Both the position numbers and the translations under genes were made by a program. DNA of 48,602 nt, from the NCBI GenBank assembly GCA_029554345.1, contig JAKPJF010000163.1, positions 1 to 48,602 of the forward strand, read 5' to 3'. This document shows, in pieces, positions 25,221 to 47,601 of the stretch. This stretch comes from Spirochaetota bacterium (GTDB lineage Bacteria > Spirochaetota > UBA4802 > JAFGJZ01). Below the pieces are notes generated by a model, which was not told the DNA's origin, made no database searches, and was given only the letters and a program-made list of their open reading frames with translations. Position 1 is the stretch's first letter, and every line of letters starts with the position of its first letter.

Positions 25221-27917
25221 TTACACTACAAACGTTTCTATCGACAAAATCTTATAAGAAGATTTGATATCACCGTAAACGATATCTGCTGTTTCTCCCT
25301 GTTTCTTTTTCAAGAGAGCTTTTGCAAGTTCTGAACGGTAAGAAAGAATATTCTTCTCATAATCCGCATCCCACGGTCCGAGAATTGCGTATTTAATCTT
25401 TTCAGAGCTGTCAACTTTTTCAAGCTCAACAACGGTTCCCGGCATAACGGTTTCTGTGCTGACCTTAGAAAGATCAATTATCTTTGCCTTCTTAATTTCG
25501 CTATCAAGCTTAGAAATCGATTTCTTAAGAATGGACTGCTTCTCCAGAAGAGAGCTGTAGTCAACATTCTCTCTCATGTCTCCTGAAAGATCGGAAGCTA
25601 TCGAAAGCTCTTTTGTAAGCTGAACCATTTCAACATTAATCATAGCTGAAAGTTCTTCAGTCTTTTTATCGAATCCGCTCTTTAGAACAAATATTTCCTC
25701 TGCATCGACATCAACCTGTTCGGTATCTTTAACATTTGACTGAGGAGCAAAATCATTAAACTTCTCAACAATTGTCTGCCTGATCTTTTCAAGCTGCCAG
25801 TCTTCAAGATAACCGGAATTAGCTGCCATGTCATATAGTTTCGCGCAGATGCCTTTATCATTTTCAGAAATTACTTTTTTTAGAATCTCATTTTCTCCGC
25901 CGAAAACTATATCAAGCACGATGTTTTTCAAACGGACGGACTTCAGTTCGATTCGCTTGAGATCATAAACAAGTCTGAAAAGAGCAAGACTCAAGTCTTT
26001 GACAGAATAATCGAGCCAGTCATAATTCCATGAAGAAGAAAGAATGTTTCTCGCAACCCACAGAAAGAGTTCAGGAAACTCCTTCGCTCCGACAGTGACT
26101 CTTTCAATATATCCATTAATGCATTTGAACTGATGGTCGCGAATAAGAATGTTCATGATATACTTATGAATTCTAACCGGAGTCTCAAATAATATATTCC
26201 CGAATATGGACGACCAGTCATTTCTTTCTTCTCTGATGAGATTGATAAAATCCTTCTTATAATCATAAGAAGAAATCTTTGAAGAAATTAAAGGAAGTTC
26301 TCTGCTCTCTTTTATGAAAGCTATCACTTTTACTTTTATATCATTCAATTCGCTGATTTCCGTAGAGGAATACTTCTCAAAACTTTTCAGAATAAAATAA
26401 GAAAGAATGAGCTTGGTATTCGAACCTTCGCTTGAAGCTGAGATAAAATTATCAATAAAGAGATTTATATCATTTTTCACTTCAGAAAACTGAACATTGT
26501 TAATCAAATCAAGAGCCGCATCAAGCCGGCCGCTGAATGAAGGTGCATTCTTGTATCTTACTAAAAGATCTTCATAATATGTAACAGGTTTATCTCTAAC
26601 AAAAATCTCATCTTTTTTCTGTTCAGAAAATGCGAATTCTGCATCTTTCTTGATAAGATTTTTTGCCTTGGTCCACCATTTTGACCAGTTTTTTTCCTCA
26701 ACATAATCTGGAATCAAATCTTTCTTGATGGTCATAAGGTTAATTCTTTTTCCGTGCGAATTTATCAGCAGACGGAAAAATTCCATAAAGTCGGAAGTGA
26801 AAAGTTTTTTTATCTCTTCAGGATTCTCATGTCTTTGCACATAAAAATGATCTTTCTTCAGCGGTATAAGCGACTGAAGAGCCATTTGAACAGTCATCTT
26901 ATGATTTTCTTTGCCTTTAAAATCCAAAACTATGTCATCCTGATTGATTTCCTTAATCAGACCAAGTCCCCATGTACGGTGCATTACATAGTTTCCGGAA
27001 TCAAAAACAATATTATTCTCAAAAGCATCAAGAGCCGTCTTTATCGGAGTTTGATAATCAGCGAGCTTCGAAATCGCCAAAAACTGCTGAAGCTGAGAAT
27101 GTTCCGAATATTTTTTTTCAAAATGCTTTATGATTTTTTTTCTTGAGTCAAAATCATCTTTTCTGTTTTTGAGTACATGTTTAAGAATATCAATTGAAAC
27201 ATCATCATTGTCTGAATAAAATGAATACAGTCTCTTATACATATCAGCAGCAATTTCTTTTTGCTGTACGTCAGAAAGAAGTCTTTCTATCTTATCAAAA
27301 TAAGGAAGTTCATCCTTTGAAGCTTCAATTATTTTATCCAGAAGTTCTGTAACTTCCGAAAAATTTCCGTCTTTGATATAACCTTCAAAAGCCAGCTTTA
27401 AATATTGAGACGACTTTTGTTTGTCTTCAGATAAAGCAAGTGCCAGTTTTTTTGCCACTTCTGAATCAAATCTGTTTATCTTTATAAGCTCTTCCCAGAT
27501 AGGAACAGCTTCTTTAACTTTTTTCAGTTTTTCATAACTTAATGCGAGAGCACGTAAAGCAGCCCTGTTTTCACCGAATTCAAGAATCCTGTCGGCGATA
27601 TGACCCACAATCGCCCATTTCTGGGCATTAACATAAAGATTAAGAAGTTCCATCAGATGGCTTTTGCTGTCCATTGAATCTTTGCCGAAAGAAATGAGAC
27701 CCAAAAGATACATCGCAATAACAGAGTTCTGATAATTTGCCAGATGTTCCCGGCAATGCTTTACAAGCTCTTCTTCTGCTGATTCGCCTGCGGCAGAATT
27801 ATAAAAATCATCCAGAACTTTAAATCTATTGATGCTGATGTCTTTGGGATTTATTCTTCCCCAAAGTTCCTCTTTAAGAAGTGATTCAAGCCTTTCAATT
27901 ATTTTTTCTTTAGACAT
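25221..27917 (-). CDS. greA: Spirochaete-type long transcript cleavage factor GreA
   Basis: An 898-residue protein, against ~160 for ordinary GreA. The last ~155 residues are GreA. The coiled coil (~740-815) has its acidic tip at SGDMRENVDYS, matching D-x-x-EN-x-(E/D)-Y. The FKBP-like C-domain (~816-898) has MPGTVVELEK, AILGPWDADYEKNILSY and SELAKALLKKKQGET. The N-terminal ~300 residues are helical and TPR-like. Near 303-350 is a short beta segment (YVMHRTWGLGLIKEINQDDI) resembling CarD/RNAP-interaction domains. GreA rescues backtracked RNA polymerase, and the extension is known from Borrelia and Treponema homologues. GGAGAAGAAGGG precedes the ATG. Confidence 0.93.
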   Translation of the reverse strand: MSKEKIIERLESLLKEELWGRINPKDISINRFKVLDDFYNSAAGESAEEELVKHCREHLANYQNSVIAMYLLGLISFGKDSMDSKSHLMELLNLYVNAQKWAIVGHIADRILEFGENRAALRALALSYEKLKKVKEAVPIWEELIKINRFDSEVAKKLALALSEDKQKSSQYLKLAFEGYIKDGNFSEVTELLDKIIEASKDELPYFDKIERLLSDVQQKEIAADMYKRLYSFYSDNDDVSIDILKHVLKNRKDDFDSRKKIIKHFEKKYSEHSQLQQFLAISKLADYQTPIKTALDAFENNIVFDSGNYVMHRTWGLGLIKEINQDDIVLDFKGKENHKMTVQMALQSLIPLKKDHFYVQRHENPEEIKKLFTSDFMEFFRLLINSHGKRINLMTIKKDLIPDYVEEKNWSKWWTKAKNLIKKDAEFAFSEQKKDEIFVRDKPVTYYEDLLVRYKNAPSFSGRLDAALDLINNVQFSEVKNDINLFIDNFISASSEGSNTKLILSYFILKSFEKYSSTEISELNDIKVKVIAFIKESRELPLISSKISSYDYKKDFINLIREERNDWSSIFGNILFETPVRIHKYIMNILIRDHQFKCINGYIERVTVGAKEFPELFLWVARNILSSSWNYDWLDYSVKDLSLALFRLVYDLKRIELKSVRLKNIVLDIVFGGENEILKKVISENDKGICAKLYDMAANSGYLEDWQLEKIRQTIVEKFNDFAPQSNVKDTEQVDVDAEEIFVLKSGFDKKTEELSAMINVEMVQLTKELSIASDLSGDMRENVDYSSLLEKQSILKKSISKLDSEIKKAKIIDLSKVSTETVMPGTVVELEKVDSSEKIKYAILGPWDADYEKNILSYRSELAKALLKKKQGETADIVYGDIKSSYKILSIETFVV

Positions 27918-35617: not shown

Positions 35618-37888
35618 ATGAAAAAAACAATTATGATAATCGGCGGCGGATTGCTTCAGCTTCCGGCAATTCAGACTGCAAAAAAAATGGGTCTTCAGGT
35701 AATTGTAACCGATTACAACCCAGAAGCAGTCGGAATGAAGTTTGCCGACATTCCCCTTGTTATAAGCACACGTGACTTTGAAGGAACCGTAAGGGAAGCT
35801 AGACGTCAGAACAAACTGACTCCTATAAACGGAGTTCTCACAGTCGGAACAGATGCCTCTATGACAGTATCAGCTGTAGCAAGTGCGCTTAATCTTCCCG
35901 GAATTAAATTTGAAGACGCTGAAGCTGCGACGAATAAAGTAAAAATGCGAACCCGTTTCAAAGAGCATAAAGTTCCCTCTCCGAAATTCTATCCCGTCTG
36001 GTCTCTCGCAGATGCAAAAAAAGCATGCGACAAACTAAAGTTTCCTGTTGTAATTAAACCATGCGACAATATGGGTGCACGCGGTGTAATGCTTATAAAA
36101 GAAAAAGGCATGATTACCGAAGCTTATCAGAATGCAAAAGATTCCTCTCCTTCGGGAGAATTGATTATAGAAGAATTTATGGACGGTCCGGAACTTTCAA
36201 TAGATGCCGTCATTTATAAAGGTAAAATAACGTTTACTGGAATCGCAGACAGAATTATCGAAGACCAGCCGTTCTTCATAGAAAAAGGCCACACCATGCC
36301 GTCTTTTCTTCCTGAAAATATTATTGAGGAAGCAAAACGTGTAATGACACTCGGAATTAAGGCTCTCAACATTACTCATGGATTCGCAAAAGGCGACATA
36401 AAAGTTACTTCAACCGGCGTAAAAATCGGCGAACTTGCGGCAAGACTTTCCGGCGGATTTATGTCAACATATACTTTTCCGCTTTCCAGCGGAATAGATC
36501 TAATGAAAGCCGCAATAGAGATTGCTCTGGGAGAAGAACCTTCAAACCTGGAACCTTCTAAAAATCTTGTATCAATAGAAAGAGCTATTATTGCCAAACC
36601 CGGAATAGTAAATAGAATAATCGGTCTCGATGAAGCCCGCCAAGTTAAAGGAATCAACGAAATATTTATAAGCGTCAATCTCGGGGATAAAATATCAAAA
36701 CCTAAATCAAATGTTGAAAAAGCCGGGCATATTATCGCTACTGCAAAAACTCTGGAAGAAGCCGAAAGAATAATCGCAGAAGCTAAAAAAATAATTCAGA
36801 TAGAAATATCCGACGAAAGCAATATAAGCATGGAGACTATACGAGCTGTAGCCCGTGAAAAATTCAATAAAGTCTGTTATGCCTGCACGGAATGCGACGG
36901 ATCGAAATGCGCTTCAGGTGTTCCGGGAATGGGAGCCGTAGGACGCGGAGATTCATTCAAACGCAACATAGAAGCAATCAACGAATATAAGATAAACACC
37001 CGCGTCATTCATGATGTTGATGAACCTGATACTACAGCATACTTTCTCGATCATAAACTCAGTTTTCCTGTAATGGCAGCGCCTATCACAGGAACTGTAA
37101 CAAACATGGCGGGAGCAATTGATGAAGAACTCTATGCACGTTCTGTTGTAAAGGGATGCAGAGATGCCGGAACCATCGGATTTGTCGGTGACGGTGCTAC
37201 TCCGTACAAATACAGAATCGGATTAAATGCCGTTGAAAATGCCGGCGGACTTGCGATTCCGATTTTCAAACCGAGAAAAGACAATGATTCAATAATCGAG
37301 AGAATCAAGGCTGCTGAAAGTGCAGGAGCTATAGCAGTTGGAATGGATATTGATGCAGTCGTTTTCAAAACAATGCAGATGAAAAATCAATCCGTCGGAC
37401 CAAAAGGACTGGAAACCCTTCGCGAAATTATTTCGTCAACAGATCTTCCTTTCGTTCTTAAAGGAATTATGCATCCTCGTGATGCCGAGTTTGCAGTAGA
37501 GGCCGGAGCAAAGGCGATCATCGTATCAAATCACGGCGGACGTGTTCTTGACCAGATGCGCGGAACGATGGAAATTCTTCCTGATATAGCAAGGGCTGTA
37601 AAAGGTCATATTCAGATTATGATTGACGGAGGATTCCGCAGCGGAGTTGATGTCATAAAAGCTCTGGCTCTCGGTGCAGAAACTGTTCTTATAGGAAGAC
37701 CGGTTGCCATAGCTGCTGTCGGGATGTACGATAAAGGAGTTTCTTTTTATCTTGAACATATCCGTAAAGAACTTATCACTGCGATGATTCTTTCAGGTTG
37801 TTCTGACATCTCAAAAATCACAGAAGATGTGATTTTTCACAAATCTTTCTCGAAACGAAATAGAACTCTGAGGGTTGTAAATGGCTGA
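35618..37888 (+). CDS. ATP-grasp ligase fused to FMN-dependent alpha-hydroxy-acid dehydrogenase
   Basis: A 756-residue two-domain protein. Residues 1-~395 are an ATP-grasp ligase with a Rossmann-like start (MIIGGGLLQ), FPVVIKPCDNMGARGV, ELIIEEFMDGPELSIDA and GELAARLSGGF. A linker (420-431, C-x2-C-x2-C-x4-C) leads into residues ~435-756, an FMN-dependent alpha-hydroxy-acid oxidase/dehydrogenase. This has K615, the catalytic H639 in SNHGGRVLD and R674 in DGGFRSGVD. The fusion suggests a carboxylate (perhaps a hydroxy acid) is made or used in both active sites, which is inference. GAGGTGA lies eight bases before the ATG. Its stop overlaps the dedA-like start by eight bases. Confidence 0.88.
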   Translation: MKKTIMIIGGGLLQLPAIQTAKKMGLQVIVTDYNPEAVGMKFADIPLVISTRDFEGTVREARRQNKLTPINGVLTVGTDASMTVSAVASALNLPGIKFEDAEAATNKVKMRTRFKEHKVPSPKFYPVWSLADAKKACDKLKFPVVIKPCDNMGARGVMLIKEKGMITEAYQNAKDSSPSGELIIEEFMDGPELSIDAVIYKGKITFTGIADRIIEDQPFFIEKGHTMPSFLPENIIEEAKRVMTLGIKALNITHGFAKGDIKVTSTGVKIGELAARLSGGFMSTYTFPLSSGIDLMKAAIEIALGEEPSNLEPSKNLVSIERAIIAKPGIVNRIIGLDEARQVKGINEIFISVNLGDKISKPKSNVEKAGHIIATAKTLEEAERIIAEAKKIIQIEISDESNISMETIRAVAREKFNKVCYACTECDGSKCASGVPGMGAVGRGDSFKRNIEAINEYKINTRVIHDVDEPDTTAYFLDHKLSFPVMAAPITGTVTNMAGAIDEELYARSVVKGCRDAGTIGFVGDGATPYKYRIGLNAVENAGGLAIPIFKPRKDNDSIIERIKAAESAGAIAVGMDIDAVVFKTMQMKNQSVGPKGLETLREIISSTDLPFVLKGIMHPRDAEFAVEAGAKAIIVSNHGGRVLDQMRGTMEILPDIARAVKGHIQIMIDGGFRSGVDVIKALALGAETVLIGRPVAIAAVGMYDKGVSFYLEHIRKELITAMILSGCSDISKITEDVIFHKSFSKRNRTLRVVNG

Positions 37889-41670: not shown

Positions 41671-43932
41671 TTATAGCGTTTTTCTGATTTCCATAACAGC
41701 ATCTACCATGTTTTTCAGACTCGGTTTGACCTCTTCCCATTTGCGCGTCTTGAGACCGCAATCCGGATTTATCCAGAGCCTTTCTGCAGGGATCACTTTT
41801 ATGAGCATTTTTATCTGCTGTTCAAGCTCCTCCCTTAAAGGAATTCGCGGAGAATGAATATCATAAACTCCGGGACCGATTTCGTTCTTGTATCCTCTTT
41901 CCGCAAAAACATTCAGGAGCTTGTTTCCGCTTCTTGAAGTCTCAATCGTAATTACGTCGGCATCCATTTTTTCAAGAGTACCGATTATGCTGTTGAAATC
42001 GCTATAGCACATATGCGTGTGAATCTGCGTTTCTTTTTCAGCAGAACTGACAGCACGCTTAAACGATTCAACCGCCCACTTTTCGTAAAGACTTACTTTT
42101 TCTTTTCTAAGAGGATAGCCTTCCTTAAAAGCAGCTTCATCAACCTGAATAATTTTAATTCCGGCAGACTGAAGATCAGAAACTTCCCTGCATATTGCTG
42201 AAGCTATCTGAGAGCAAACAGCTGAACGATCAATATCATTCCGCACGAATGACCAGTTTAATATCGTGACCGGACCGGTAAGCATTCCTTTCATTACTTT
42301 TTTGGTACAGCTCTGCGCATACGAAATAATATCCACAGTCATGGATCTTGGTCTTGATACGTTTCCGTAAATTACCGGTGGTTTTACGCATCTGCTTCCA
42401 TAACTCTGAACCCATCCGTTTTGCGTAAAAACAAAACCTTCCATCTGTTCACCGAAATACTCAACCATATCATTACGCTCAGGTTCACCGTGAACAAGAA
42501 CATCAAGTCCGGCTTCTTCCTGAAATTTTACGCATTCAGAAATATAATTTTTTATTCCTTCTTCATAGTCTTTCTGAGAGATTCTCTTTGCTTTATAATC
42601 ATTTCTCAGTTTTCTGATTTCAGCGGTCTGAGGAAAGCTTCCTATAGTTGTTGTTGGAAGAACCGGCAGATTAAGAATTTTTTTCTGCGCTGATATTCTT
42701 TCATCAAAAGTAAAGGATCTTTCACCTTTGCCTTTATTCGATTCTGTACTTAAAGTATTTTTAAGAAACTCAATTTTTGATTTTAAAATGTCACCGTTTG
42801 TTTTCAGCTTCAATATAGATGAATCCGAGTCAGGATAATCAAAAATAGATGCAGTATCTGATACTTCTCTAAGCTTTTCTTTAGCGAATGACATCCATTC
42901 TTTAATATGCGAATCAAGCTTTTCTTCATACTCAAGAGAATACGGAACATGAAGAAGAGAACAGCTTGTTGAAACTATTATATTTTCTTTCGGAACATAT
43001 TTTTCAATTTCTTTCAGCAAAAGATAATTATGAGAATAATCCGATTTCCAGATATTACGTCCGTCAATAATACCGGCAATGAGTATTTTTCCGTTCAAAT
43101 CGCTGAGACAGTTTAGATTTTCTTTTCCGTAAACAAAATCAAGACCAATCGCATATAAAGGAACATCCTTCAAAACCGCAACAGTTTCTGATGCGTGATC
43201 AAAATAAGTTACAAGAATTATTTTAACATTCGCGCAAACAGAATTAATATCCTGATAAGTCTGTTTAATCAAAGACAAAAATTCCTGTGAAGGATCTTTT
43301 ACTGAAAGAGGTTCATCAAACTGAAGAAATACTTCTTCATCAAGCTCTGAAAGTTTTATTATAAGCTCTTTGTAAAGAGGAATAATCTTTTCGAGCAGTT
43401 TGAAATTATCACTACCATCCGTAGTCTTTGCCAGACCAAGAAAACTCAAAGGTCCGATGATATTGATTTTTGTTTTGATTCCGGCTGATTTGGCTTCCGT
43501 ATACTCGGAAATGATTTTTTGCGGATTGAGGCGGAAGACAGTCTCTGCCGAAAGCTCCGGAACGATGTAGTGGTAGTTTGTATTGAGCCACTTAGTCATT
43601 TCCATAGCTGTAGAACTTTCGTTCCCTCTTGCCATAGCAAAATATCTTTCGAGAGAGCTTGAAATGCCGGCAAACCGTTCAGGAACAGCATTCAGCATAA
43701 CGCACATGTCGAGCATCTGGTCATAATAGCTGAAATCATTACTGCTGATAAAATCGATTCCGGCATCTTTCTGATAATTCCAATGCCGTTTTCTGAGCTG
43801 TGAAGCAATTGCCTCGAGTGAAGAGAATTCGGTTTTTTTATCCCAGAATTCTTCCAGAGCTTTTTTAAGCTCGCGTTTTTCTCCAATGCGCGGGAATCCC
43901 GTCACAAAGGATTTAATCCTTTTAGTCTGCAT
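41671..43932 (-). CDS. metE: Cobalamin-independent methionine synthase MetE
   Basis: A 753-residue zinc enzyme that transfers the methyl group from 5-methyl-tetrahydropteroyl-polyglutamate to homocysteine. The N-terminal opening TGFPRIGEKRELKKALE and the C-terminal block LPTTTIGSFPQT mark the two barrels. Zinc ligands are H and C of HTHMCYSDF (~640) and the late C of NPDCGLKTR (~723). Length matches the family. I chose ATG 43932, with AGGAGG upstream; a longer reading passes through that site. A cobalamin riboswitch lies before it, so it should be repressed when B12 is present, which implies that a B12-dependent MetH exists elsewhere in the genome. Confidence 0.97.
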   Translation of the reverse strand: MQTKRIKSFVTGFPRIGEKRELKKALEEFWDKKTEFSSLEAIASQLRKRHWNYQKDAGIDFISSNDFSYYDQMLDMCVMLNAVPERFAGISSSLERYFAMARGNESSTAMEMTKWLNTNYHYIVPELSAETVFRLNPQKIISEYTEAKSAGIKTKINIIGPLSFLGLAKTTDGSDNFKLLEKIIPLYKELIIKLSELDEEVFLQFDEPLSVKDPSQEFLSLIKQTYQDINSVCANVKIILVTYFDHASETVAVLKDVPLYAIGLDFVYGKENLNCLSDLNGKILIAGIIDGRNIWKSDYSHNYLLLKEIEKYVPKENIIVSTSCSLLHVPYSLEYEEKLDSHIKEWMSFAKEKLREVSDTASIFDYPDSDSSILKLKTNGDILKSKIEFLKNTLSTESNKGKGERSFTFDERISAQKKILNLPVLPTTTIGSFPQTAEIRKLRNDYKAKRISQKDYEEGIKNYISECVKFQEEAGLDVLVHGEPERNDMVEYFGEQMEGFVFTQNGWVQSYGSRCVKPPVIYGNVSRPRSMTVDIISYAQSCTKKVMKGMLTGPVTILNWSFVRNDIDRSAVCSQIASAICREVSDLQSAGIKIIQVDEAAFKEGYPLRKEKVSLYEKWAVESFKRAVSSAEKETQIHTHMCYSDFNSIIGTLEKMDADVITIETSRSGNKLLNVFAERGYKNEIGPGVYDIHSPRIPLREELEQQIKMLIKVIPAERLWINPDCGLKTRKWEEVKPSLKNMVDAVMEIRKTL

Positions 43933-43960
43933 CTTTCCTCCTTTTTGCTGACGCGACAAA

Positions 43961-44060
43961 AACTTGGCAATTGTATGGTAATCGGACTCCGGGGTTAATC
44001 CCCGTTACCGTAGCGCGACTGTGTCCGGTTCTCACGGACTTCCCCATTGCTACAATTGTT
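43961..44060 (-). promoter_or_regulatory. Cobalamin (B12) riboswitch upstream of metE
   Basis: Read on the minus strand, the 194-base leader between the VIT-protein stop and metE holds the cobalamin-aptamer core: ATGGGGAAGTCCGTGAGAAC, then CGGACACAGTCGCGCTACGG, corresponding to the conserved GGGAA-x-x-x-GGTG-x-x-A-x-x-CC core and the CGC-x-ACTG-like junction. The later AGTCCGATTACC matches the AGxC-x-GA-x-ACC element. The aptamer is enclosed by CAATTGT (44058-44052 region) pairing with 43968-43974. A second small stem TTTTTG/CAAAAA lies directly before the GGAGG ribosome site, so control may act on translation. Confidence 0.92.
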
Positions 44061-44126
44061 AAGTCAATCAGAGATGCGCCGCATTCTTTGTCCAGCAATA
44101 ATCCGGGAGAAGACAGCGCGTTAAGA

Positions 44127-47042
44127 TTACTGCTCTAATCTTCTCCGTTTAAGTTTCATCAGACCAAGAACAATAACAAGAACAGAAATTAGGGCTAAAG
44201 CTCCCGGTTCAGGAGAATTATACGTTTCGGCATACTCATTATCAAGAATTTCTTTTTCTTTATTTTCGAGTTCCTTCCATTGAGTATCATTTTCAACCAC
44301 AATGTAAGAAGTGCTTGAAGTGATAATTCCGGATTTTCTTGAACTTTCAATAAGACTTTTGAAAACTTCTCCGTCAGAATTTCCTTTTATTTTATCTTCG
44401 CAATAAAGATCGAATGCTGTTTTTATTATTCCTTCTGCTTTTTCAGCATATAATTTACGGAAATTTCCTTTTGTATCAGTATAGGAAATAGAATCTAATG
44501 CATTTTTTTCAGCGAAATATATTATTGAATCATCACCTGGAAAGACTGAACTCACTCCATTTCCGAATAATACATGGCGAACTCCCTTAGATGATTTCTC
44601 GATTTCAGAAATAAAGATCATTCCATTGGATGTGAGATAAAAACCTTTTGCATCAGGCTGAAGCATGGCTGAAATGCTTTCATACTCCGATAAAATTTCT
44701 TCAGTTGAGGGAGTAACTATCGCAAAAACCGGGTATTCGCTTTCTGATAAATCATATCTGGATGAAATCGTATGAACTGCTTTTTTATAAAAGAAACCTC
44801 CTCTTTTTCCATTTTTAGTAAATGATTCTTTTTCTTTTATTTCATCTTTCAAACTGCTGACTGAAAGTTGTTTTCCTTCATTTACAATGTAATTAACAAA
44901 ACAGATACTTGCGGATTCAATTTCCGGGTTAATCCTTTTAACATAATCAGCCGTCGAAATAATATCATGTTTAGTTATGGTTGAATCTTTTGATATATCC
45001 GCAATTATATAAAGAACAGGTTTGCGGTTTTTAATTTTGATATTTTTCGCAATTGATTCCGGAATATAAAATACAGACCCGTAATCGTTTTCAGTTTTAA
45101 GAAGTTTAGATTCTGATGTTGAGTTTAATTTGACCGTTTCTTCCTGCAAAAAATGATTATCTGAAGTTCCCGTCTGGCATAGAAATTTAATCTTCGAAAA
45201 TGAACCTTTTGGGCAGATAAATTCTAATATACACTCTCTTTTTTCATTCTCCCGAAAAGGAAAAACATCAAATCTCAATTCATTATCAGAAAGATAATAA
45301 ATTACTGCCGGATCCTGTGCGCGTCTTTTAATTTCATTAAAGACCCAGACGGCACTTGTCTTTTCATAAATTCTTCCCTGTTCGAATTTATCTCCGATTT
45401 TAAGTTTAAGTCCTGACACAAAAACACCGTCCGGAATTATAATTTTTCCGCGAAAACCGTCATTGCGGGATGCTCCTGTTAATTCTTTCATTTTTATTTT
45501 TACTGAATGTTTTTCAGTACTTCCTTCAACAGAAGAAAATACTTCATCTACGGATTCTATTAAAGCATCAGAAAGTATTTTCTCTTTGTTAACAATCAAG
45601 GAATCCCTGACATTATACGCACGGCTTCCGAAAACAGCAAAATCGGTTATTCCCTTTATATTTTCTAAAACATTGTAAGCAGAATCTCCGTAAAAAACTT
45701 CGAACATTTCATCCATTCTGTTTTGAGGCAGAGTTTTTTTTGAAACCTGTACCGCAATTGAAGAAAGAACAGGAAGCCCTTTACCTGTTTTATCCCGGTA
45801 CATATTTGATAATGAATCCTTTACCATAAACAAAGGATACTTCAATTCTTCATCCGACTTTTCGTTCAGAACATATTGAGAAGCATTCTGAAGAACTTTA
45901 TATTCAATATATTTTTTTGCCGCATAAAACGACGGCAGAACAAGAATTAAACCAGTCACAAGAGCAGTGGCCTTCATTTTTCCAAATACTTGAGAATATA
46001 AACGGAAGTCTTTAGTTAATTTTGAGATATGAATTATGAGAAGAAATGACGGAGCAAGTATAACAATTCCTATTCCGAACAAAAGAATTAGAAGAAAAGA
46101 AAATGGAATGGCAGGAGCAAGTATTATAAAGAAATACACTACAAACGGAAGAAGAGCAACTCTTACTGCAGATAAACAGATGTTGAATTTTTTATTTGCA
46201 GTTTCAGGAATTGAAACTGCTAACGCGTTAATGAATGTCAGCAGATATATTCCGGGATATTGAAAATTGCCGGGAAAAGGAATTATTAGATTCAACAGAA
46301 GTCCGGCAAACGGCAGAAAGAATCCTGCAACTATTCCTACAATGATATTTCTTTGCAGTTTGTACTTTTCTGTCTTCATTACTACAAATGAAAAAATACG
46401 CACGAAAACAATTAATGAAGAAAGTGAACACACACAGAATATAAAAAAGAAACTTATGCCTATCAGTTTAGAAAACGAAGAATAAAATATTCCGAAAAAT
46501 GCCGAAAGAACTCCTAAAACTCCAAACCAGAACAAAGGGAAAAGAATTCCGGATATCGATACGACAACAATTTCCTTAACCGAACTTTTTTCTATTCTCC
46601 ACATCGATACTGACAACAGGGGAAAAATTACGGCAGAAGCCATACATGCAAACTGAAGATATAACAGATGCTCTTCAATTATAAGTTTGGAAGAAACTCT
46701 GCCTATTATCTCATAAATCTCAAGATAATAGAACGCCATAAAAGTACAGGCTGATAATAAAAGTAATACGTTTAAAGCAACCGGAACATAAGATTTTCTC
46801 TCTTTCTTTAATACTGATTCTCTGAAAATAATTGAAGCAAACAGAAACGGCAGAAACTGCAAAAGAAAACTTACAACAATAACTTTGACATTTAAACTAG
46901 AGAATTCATTTTTTGATGACACATAAAATGAATTTGCATTTACTGCAAAAAGGAATAATTGCGGAAGTAAAAGAAATACTGCCGCAAACAATTTTCCCGA
47001 AATAAATCTTTTTAAATCAATCAATGATATATTCTTTTTCAT
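44127..47042 (-). CDS. PEP-CTERM membrane protein with VIT domain, dedicated exosortase substrate
   Basis: A 971-residue envelope protein. Residues ~15-375 hold about ten hydrophobic helices. Residues ~510-612 resemble a VIT domain (SGLKLKIGDKFEQGRIYEKT, then IKRRAQDPAVIYYL, NELRFDVFPF). A worn von Willebrand-A-like region follows (~674-880; the MIDAS reads D682-I-S-K-D). The C-terminus is a sorting signal: SPEP (944-946 is PEP), a hydrophobic helix (947-961), then KLKRRR. This matches the PEP-CTERM/MSEP-CTERM plan. The exosortase gene lies directly upstream and overlaps it by 26 bases. In Bacteroidota-type XrtK/XrtN systems, exosortase and one such large VIT protein also occur as a pair. Confidence 0.85.
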   Translation of the reverse strand: MKKNISLIDLKRFISGKLFAAVFLLLPQLFLFAVNANSFYVSSKNEFSSLNVKVIVVSFLLQFLPFLFASIIFRESVLKKERKSYVPVALNVLLLLSACTFMAFYYLEIYEIIGRVSSKLIIEEHLLYLQFACMASAVIFPLLSVSMWRIEKSSVKEIVVVSISGILFPLFWFGVLGVLSAFFGIFYSSFSKLIGISFFFIFCVCSLSSLIVFVRIFSFVVMKTEKYKLQRNIIVGIVAGFFLPFAGLLLNLIIPFPGNFQYPGIYLLTFINALAVSIPETANKKFNICLSAVRVALLPFVVYFFIILAPAIPFSFLLILLFGIGIVILAPSFLLIIHISKLTKDFRLYSQVFGKMKATALVTGLILVLPSFYAAKKYIEYKVLQNASQYVLNEKSDEELKYPLFMVKDSLSNMYRDKTGKGLPVLSSIAVQVSKKTLPQNRMDEMFEVFYGDSAYNVLENIKGITDFAVFGSRAYNVRDSLIVNKEKILSDALIESVDEVFSSVEGSTEKHSVKIKMKELTGASRNDGFRGKIIIPDGVFVSGLKLKIGDKFEQGRIYEKTSAVWVFNEIKRRAQDPAVIYYLSDNELRFDVFPFRENEKRECILEFICPKGSFSKIKFLCQTGTSDNHFLQEETVKLNSTSESKLLKTENDYGSVFYIPESIAKNIKIKNRKPVLYIIADISKDSTITKHDIISTADYVKRINPEIESASICFVNYIVNEGKQLSVSSLKDEIKEKESFTKNGKRGGFFYKKAVHTISSRYDLSESEYPVFAIVTPSTEEILSEYESISAMLQPDAKGFYLTSNGMIFISEIEKSSKGVRHVLFGNGVSSVFPGDDSIIYFAEKNALDSISYTDTKGNFRKLYAEKAEGIIKTAFDLYCEDKIKGNSDGEVFKSLIESSRKSGIITSSTSYIVVENDTQWKELENKEKEILDNEYAETYNSPEPGALALISVLVIVLGLMKLKRRRLEQ

Positions 47043-47601
47043 TTGAAACTCTCCCGTATATTTTATAAATAAGAAGCAATGCCGGAATAAAAATCATCAT
47101 TCCGACAGACATGTGAATGATAGAGTGGAACGAACTGCTTATATACTTTCCGGCAAAAGACGAAGCGTATAATGCGGAAACGATTCGAATTGAATTTACT
47201 GCAATGCAGATGATCCATACAGGCAGAGCCAGAAGAATCTGGGATAAAACCGTTTCTATAAATGAAAGCTTTTTGAGTCTCAGATATAAGATCATGGTGA
47301 ATGCTATGACAAAGAAGCTGAAACCGCTGCACGAATCGACTAGACGAATTGTTCCTAAAGAAGTATGAATGACATTAAACCCGCCTTCTTCAGTCATCGG
47401 AGACATAAAATAAACCGAAGAAAGAATTCCTGACGGTACAAGAAACAGACTGCTAACAATGTCCGTATAAATTTTACCTATTGTATTAAGAGTAAAAAAT
47501 AAGGATATCGCCGATATAATTTTTCTGCTTTGGTAAAGATTTCTGATTATGCAAATAACTTTCCATAGAAAATTATCCAAGATAGAATTTTCCCCTCTCA
47601 T
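47017..47601 (-). CDS. Exosortase (small stand-alone, XrtK/XrtN-like)
   Basis: A 194-residue polytopic membrane cysteine peptidase of the exosortase/archaeosortase superfamily. The catalytic set is visible: C91 in LVDSCSGFSF, R139 in AVNSIRIVSALYAS (the N-x-x-R motif) and H163 in SIIHMSVGMMIF (H-x3-G). It cleaves PEP-CTERM-type signals at the inner membrane. At 194 residues it is the minimal form, without extra domains. ATG 47601 is supported by AGGAGG upstream; a longer reading crosses that site. The adjoining PEP-CTERM protein is the obvious substrate. Naming XrtK or XrtN would need a profile search. Confidence 0.88.
   Translation of the reverse strand: MRGENSILDNFLWKVICIIRNLYQSRKIISAISLFFTLNTIGKIYTDIVSSLFLVPSGILSSVYFMSPMTEEGGFNVIHTSLGTIRLVDSCSGFSFFVIAFTMILYLRLKKLSFIETVLSQILLALPVWIICIAVNSIRIVSALYASSFAGKYISSSFHSIIHMSVGMMIFIPALLLIYKIYGRVSNEKEYIID

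Follow-up and report, generated by a model that had tools for sequence, protein, structure and literature searches.

An XrtK-type exosortase and an MSEP-CTERM protein, encoded by two overlapping genes on a 48,602-nucleotide contig of a Spirochaetota bacterium (the window, i.e. the whole stretch of DNA analyzed), probably form a self-contained two-gene module in which XrtK cuts the Glu-Pro signal of a single substrate. Computational analysis showed that the two proteins are paired, single-copy, and co-inherited, and established their catalytic residues and topology. The pair is a known and already named NCBIfam system (XrtK, MSEP-CTERM), of which it represents a divergent branch with SPEP replacing MSEP. 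The first-pass annotation had described a dedicated pair and compared it with XrtK/XrtN-type systems; the profile matches and adjacency bear this out, the arrangement being that of the named system rather than an unusual one. Literature searches returned no study on the function of exosortase K, XrtK, or MSEP-CTERM, and nothing relevant joining exosortase with XrtN or a VIT domain, or PEP-CTERM with a VIT domain. One enzyme with one adjoining substrate offers the least complicated case for finding out how an exosortase acts on a protein C-terminus, which for bacterial exosortases is still an open question.

Table 1. Features of the exosortase–substrate pair in the window
Feature	Position	Strand	Details
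XrtK-type exosortase	47017-47601	-	194 aa; catalytic set C91, R139, H163
MSEP-CTERM protein, sole predicted substrate	44127-47042	-	971 aa; TIGR04286 293.4 bits, residues 20-963
Overlap of exosortase and substrate genes	47017-47042	-	26 bases, from coordinates
11 predicted membrane helices	45867-46988	-	residues ~19-392, N-terminus inside; AF2 model and loop charge
VIT beta-sandwich domain	45063-45566	-	residues ~493-660; Pfam PF08487 and Foldseek ITIH1
vWA-like domain, hybrid-like strands, and tail	44298-45023	-	residues 674-915; MIDAS DxSxS absent
C-terminal sorting signal, SPEP + helix + KRRR	44127-44216	-	residues 943-971 plus stop

The exosortase gene and its surroundings

The three catalytic residues in the 194-aa frame, the gene overlap, and the end of the 971-aa substrate (PEP at residues 944-946, then a helix and KRRR) were all found as the first-pass annotation had given them. 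The exosortase ATG at 47601 is closely preceded by GGAGGAG and falls at the same place as in the congeneric orthologue; the overlap makes translational coupling of exosortase and substrate probable. Upstream of the pair lies a divergently oriented gene for a DUF4349 protein, and downstream a metE-like gene (41671-43959). A cobalamin riboswitch (43956-44071, minus strand; 31.7 bits, gathering score 31.5) sits between the MSEP gene and the metE-like gene, which suggests B12 control of methionine synthase choice. Elsewhere in the window, a 756-aa open frame (35618-37888, plus strand) is an apparent fusion: its first half matches ATP-grasp/L-amino acid ligase models, and its second half an FMN-dependent dehydrogenase model. 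An 898-aa protein (25221-27917, minus strand) has a GreA/GreB domain confined to its C-terminus (residues 746-894), preceded by a long N-terminal part without a Pfam match.

In a profile search of the protein that the first-pass annotation had called an exosortase, the best NCBIfam model was TIGR04287 (XrtK), at 42.3 bits and thus below the curated cut-off of 55. Two further models were narrowly passed, TIGR04178 (23.7 bits, cut-off 23) and PF09721 (26.2 bits, cut-off 25.7); with these exosortase/archaeosortase profiles above cut-off and the conserved Cys, Arg, and His in place, the enzyme is assigned to the superfamily on sequence grounds. The XrtK cut-off was exceeded in just 6 of 393 spirochaetote genomes. 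Because all 14 paired enzymes match the XrtK model at E 0.01, and because the catalytic residues are invariant (C91, G93, R139, H163, and G167 in 14/14 XrtK sequences aligned), the low score is attributed to divergence of the enzyme. It is accordingly named here as XrtK-type and placed by its sequence in a divergent branch, with a score below the curated cut-off.

A large membrane-held substrate with a VIT domain

The same kind of search placed the substrate in the MSEP-CTERM family along nearly its full length, with 293.4 bits against a curated cut-off of 150. A multi-helix part was correctly anticipated by the first-pass annotation, but the number of helices before the soluble part is 11, rather than about ten, in both the AF2 model and a positive-inside count. 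Family median net charge is +2 for inner loops and 0 or -1 for outer loops, being positive for the C-terminus and for all six inner loops; from this alternation the VIT/vWA part is predicted to lie outside, in the periplasm. In the AF2 model, of moderate confidence (pLDDT 71), the 11 helices are followed by the VIT and vWA-like domains, after which come a stretch of helix, a strand that runs back, and finally the C-terminal helix.

Of the VIT and vWA-like domains proposed earlier, the VIT domain stands, on Pfam and Foldseek evidence, and the vWA domain stands as a predicted fold, with no Pfam vWA model matched by the substrate. PF08487 scored 24.0 bits on the protein alone (E 4.4e-5; gathering score 26.5) and 28.4 bits, above cut-off, in the genome-wide search. 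Known vWA domains matched the substrate model over about 130-147 residues, the best of them aligning with residues 671-820 at Z 10.9 and an rmsd of 3.4 over 131 residues. In alignments, the full MIDAS motif DxSxS occurred in none of the 14 sequences covering it, and its first Asp was kept in all 14. Absence of the motif makes metal-dependent adhesion unlikely for the substrate. The top Foldseek match of the whole model was ITIH1 (6fpy; E 7.8e-10), with agreeing domain order and a global rmsd of 12.8, and the top PDB profile match was ITIH4, which was weak (E 0.054).

One enzyme and one substrate

The C-terminal helix of the substrate spans residues 948-970. Where SPEP precedes it here, other family members have MSEP, MDEP, MAEP, ADEP, or KSEP, such that Glu-Pro alone is invariant (12/12 members); Glu-Pro, helix, and basic end are all present in every member whose sequence extends to the C-terminus. 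Profile searches of the source genome (3.03 Mb in 214 contigs, 96% complete) gave one exosortase match, one PEP-CTERM match, and one VIT domain; the signal profile of the family itself likewise yielded a single credible match. The only further signal match below E 1 (profile A4; C194, E 0.0097) was dismissed as chance, since the 42-aa frame containing it is antisense to a long open reading frame resembling, by eye, a BipA/TypA-type GTPase. The first-pass reading of one enzyme coupled to one protein is thus upheld, with neither a second exosortase nor another PEP-CTERM protein detected in this assembly; a further substrate could be missing from 214 contigs at 96% completeness.

The exosortase itself is small. 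Its AF2 model (pLDDT 87) has 5 helical elements. A solved fold was sought for XrtK and none was accepted, there being no Foldseek match at E <0.001 and VIA-align Z values of at most 7.2, within the chance range for helical models. EpsH, by comparison, has 8 helices (PMC1569441), and the XrtK match to the EpsH profile begins only at profile position 69-70 of 241. Such figures, for an enzyme of ~190 aa in strict pairing with its neighbor, would fit a role of the large protein mainly as a partner that supplies, with its membrane domain, what so small an exosortase lacks; we consider this improbable, since an invariant Glu-Pro with helix and basic end is what is expected of a substrate.

Distribution and inheritance of the pair

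MSEP-CTERM proteins above the curated cut-off were found in 14 of the 393 spirochaetote genomes sampled, and at every one of these loci (14/14) an XrtK gene lay directly upstream, overlapping by 4-44 bases with the starts as called. XrtN with its VIT protein was found in 5 other genomes of the sample. Dedicated pairs, held by the first-pass annotation to occur mainly in other phyla, do exist as described but are not exceptional in spirochaetes. A single candidate for XrtK without MSEP (genome G374) was dismissed, the match having just 21.5 bits and two stops. No neighbor gene was shared between families across the pair loci.

Pairwise distances of XrtK and MSEP correlate (r 0.85, Mantel p 2e-4), and the two trees agree on groups supported in both, e.g. 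that of the window with G166 and the fragmentary genome G219. The pair of G207, a genome of the same order as the window, groups with that of G220, which belongs to a family outside this order; the history of the pair is therefore not a plain reflection of the sampled taxonomy, and transfer is possible. A search for signs of insertion or loss in the sister genus demonstrated no empty site, as it found metE in G146 only and no convincing match to the neighboring DUF4349 gene, and a search for mobile carriage gave no plasmid match for a relative's MSEP and no PHROGs match.

Between two congeneric genomes, dN/dS was 0.11 for XrtK and 0.19 for MSEP, values which, at the sequence level, indicate purifying selection on both genes. 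Identity between congeneric genomes (44127-47042 against L046:4667-7582 for MSEP) was 68% for MSEP, 84% for XrtK, and 90% for metE; by part, MSEP reached 84% in the VIT domain, 89% in the tail, and 52-65% in the remainder. The distribution is patchy, the pair not being found in the two other sampled genomes of its own family. Together with the lower conservation of MSEP than of its neighbors, this could be taken as the mark of a decaying or non-functional relic, but dN/dS well below 1 in both genes, and in signal and tail, and the lack of internal stops make such decay extremely unlikely.

Proposed mechanism

In the mechanism we propose, XrtK and its only substrate would be co-translated, and the substrate would insert via its 11 helices with the N-terminus in the cytoplasm. 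The ITIH-like VIT/vWA part would be placed in the periplasm, and the C-terminal helix would dip back into the membrane. XrtK would then recognize the Glu-Pro signal at the periplasmic membrane edge; C91, assisted by R139 and H163, would attack the bond to form a thioester, and the C-terminal helix would be removed either by hydrolysis or by transfer of the newly formed C-terminus onto an acceptor amine. The likely outcome is a VIT/vWA part that has lost its second anchor or is attached by its C-terminus to another envelope component; as 11 N-terminal helices would remain, release from the membrane would not be the purpose. We infer cleavage and its chemistry, the latter from distant family members: for archaeosortase A (ArtA), a thioester at the active-site Cys has been proposed and substrates are lipid-anchored, the amine acceptor being a speculative model of that paper itself (PMC7157517). 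Loss of biofilm or of surface attachment is seen in exosortase mutants elsewhere (PMC10936215, PMC12188702), which by analogy suggests an envelope or surface role for the pair.

The fate of the new C-terminus can be read in two ways. XrtK may simply hydrolyze the C-terminal anchor, activating or unlocking the VIT/vWA part with no acceptor involved. Such proteolytic maturation, to which we give rather less than an even chance, is consistent with a substrate already anchored by 11 helices, for which a new anchor is unneeded, and with the lack of a conserved acceptor gene beside the pair, but the family precedent is transfer, in the lipid anchoring of ArtA substrates (PMC7157517). Alternatively, XrtK may attach the ITIH-like part by its C-terminus to a lipid or to a polymer of the envelope, such that the protein would connect the inner membrane with a further envelope component. 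Both ITIH matches described above point this way, as does ArtA (PMC7157517), and ITIH heavy chains are covalently carried on polysaccharide (PMC7170535). The likeness to ITIH heavy chains makes joining to an acceptor attractive but does not show it: the match is one of fold only, the pair has no linked acceptor pathway, and the vWA-like part lacks MIDAS residues. Transfer is a possible but somewhat doubtful reading.

Comparison with known systems

PEP_integral (TIGR02921) resembles the substrate in being a multi-helix protein with a PEP-CTERM end. One MSEP member matches it weakly (E 0.01), but it exceeds its cut-off in no spirochaetote genome of the sample, where matches are to the VIT region only. 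We take PEP_integral to be the three-member family of Haft 2006. That three-member integral membrane PEP-CTERM family was described by Haft 2006 (PMC1569441), and PEP-CTERM proteins integral to the membrane have remained an anomaly ever since. Another one-enzyme-one-substrate layout was seen in two spirochaetote genomes, in which exosortases of ~500 aa adjoin a Gly-rich PEP-CTERM protein of 91-94 aa (L055:4276-6097, L056:3919-5735). Eight-helix proteins of 277-278 aa are encoded in two spirochaetote genomes (L059:4653-5489, L060:3935-4768), the best match of the L059 protein being archaeosortase A at 47.8 bits (cut-off 75).

ITIH1 (6fpy) shares the order of VIT, vWA, and hybrid domains with the substrate. 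Unlike the substrate, it is a secreted protein of animals, its MIDAS is functional, and it has neither a membrane domain nor an exosortase (PMC7170535); the DxSxS MIDAS motif expected of an ITIH heavy chain is absent from the substrate. ITIH heavy chains have a covalent link to chondroitin sulfate and are transferred to hyaluronan (PMC7170535).

The closest system is XrtK/MSEP-CTERM (TIGR04287/TIGR04286), with which the pair agrees in both proteins, adjacency, gene order, catalytic set, and a full-length substrate match. It departs from this system in the score of its enzyme, which falls under the curated cut-off together with those of several other paired members, and in its signal, which is SPEP in place of MSEP or MDEP.

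The XrtN system (TIGR04476/TIGR04477) likewise has an integral-membrane VIT protein with a PEP-type end and a dedicated exosortase, but this exosortase is ~450 aa long, its substrate has fewer predicted N-terminal helices, and the gene order is substrate then enzyme, the reverse of that in the XrtK dyad. The substrate described here scored 27.5 bits against an XrtN-system cut-off of 250, placing it outside that system, and its genome gave no XrtN match. Comparison of MSEP and XrtN substrate family profiles nevertheless gave a probability of 99.6%, and matching part by part was colinear (last membrane helices, P 3.7e-6; VIT, 2.4e-16; tail and signal, 1.9e-8), with shuffled and reversed controls at ~0.5. 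The helix part, taken alone, matched least well (87%), and similar helix composition may account for some of its match. As an added result, profile similarity thus identifies the XrtK and XrtN substrates as homologous in last membrane helices, VIT domain, and tail, with a common origin. In genus g50, XrtK occurs in G220 and XrtN in G100 and G178, family f34 is likewise split between genera, and XrtN dyads are present where sister lineages miss XrtK dyads. Mutual exclusion is not claimed, since the two sets (14 and 5 of 393) do not overlap but chance predicts the same. A wider idea, which we regard as unlikely, would unite XrtK/MSEP and XrtN/VIT as the two branches of a single system. Its exosortase would link an ITIH-like protein, retained in the inner membrane, through its C-terminus to a lipid or polymer of the envelope; one protein would then bridge two envelope layers, in a bacterial equivalent of the transfer of heavy chains onto polysaccharide. 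Because the two substrates are homologous, one experiment would bear on both systems.
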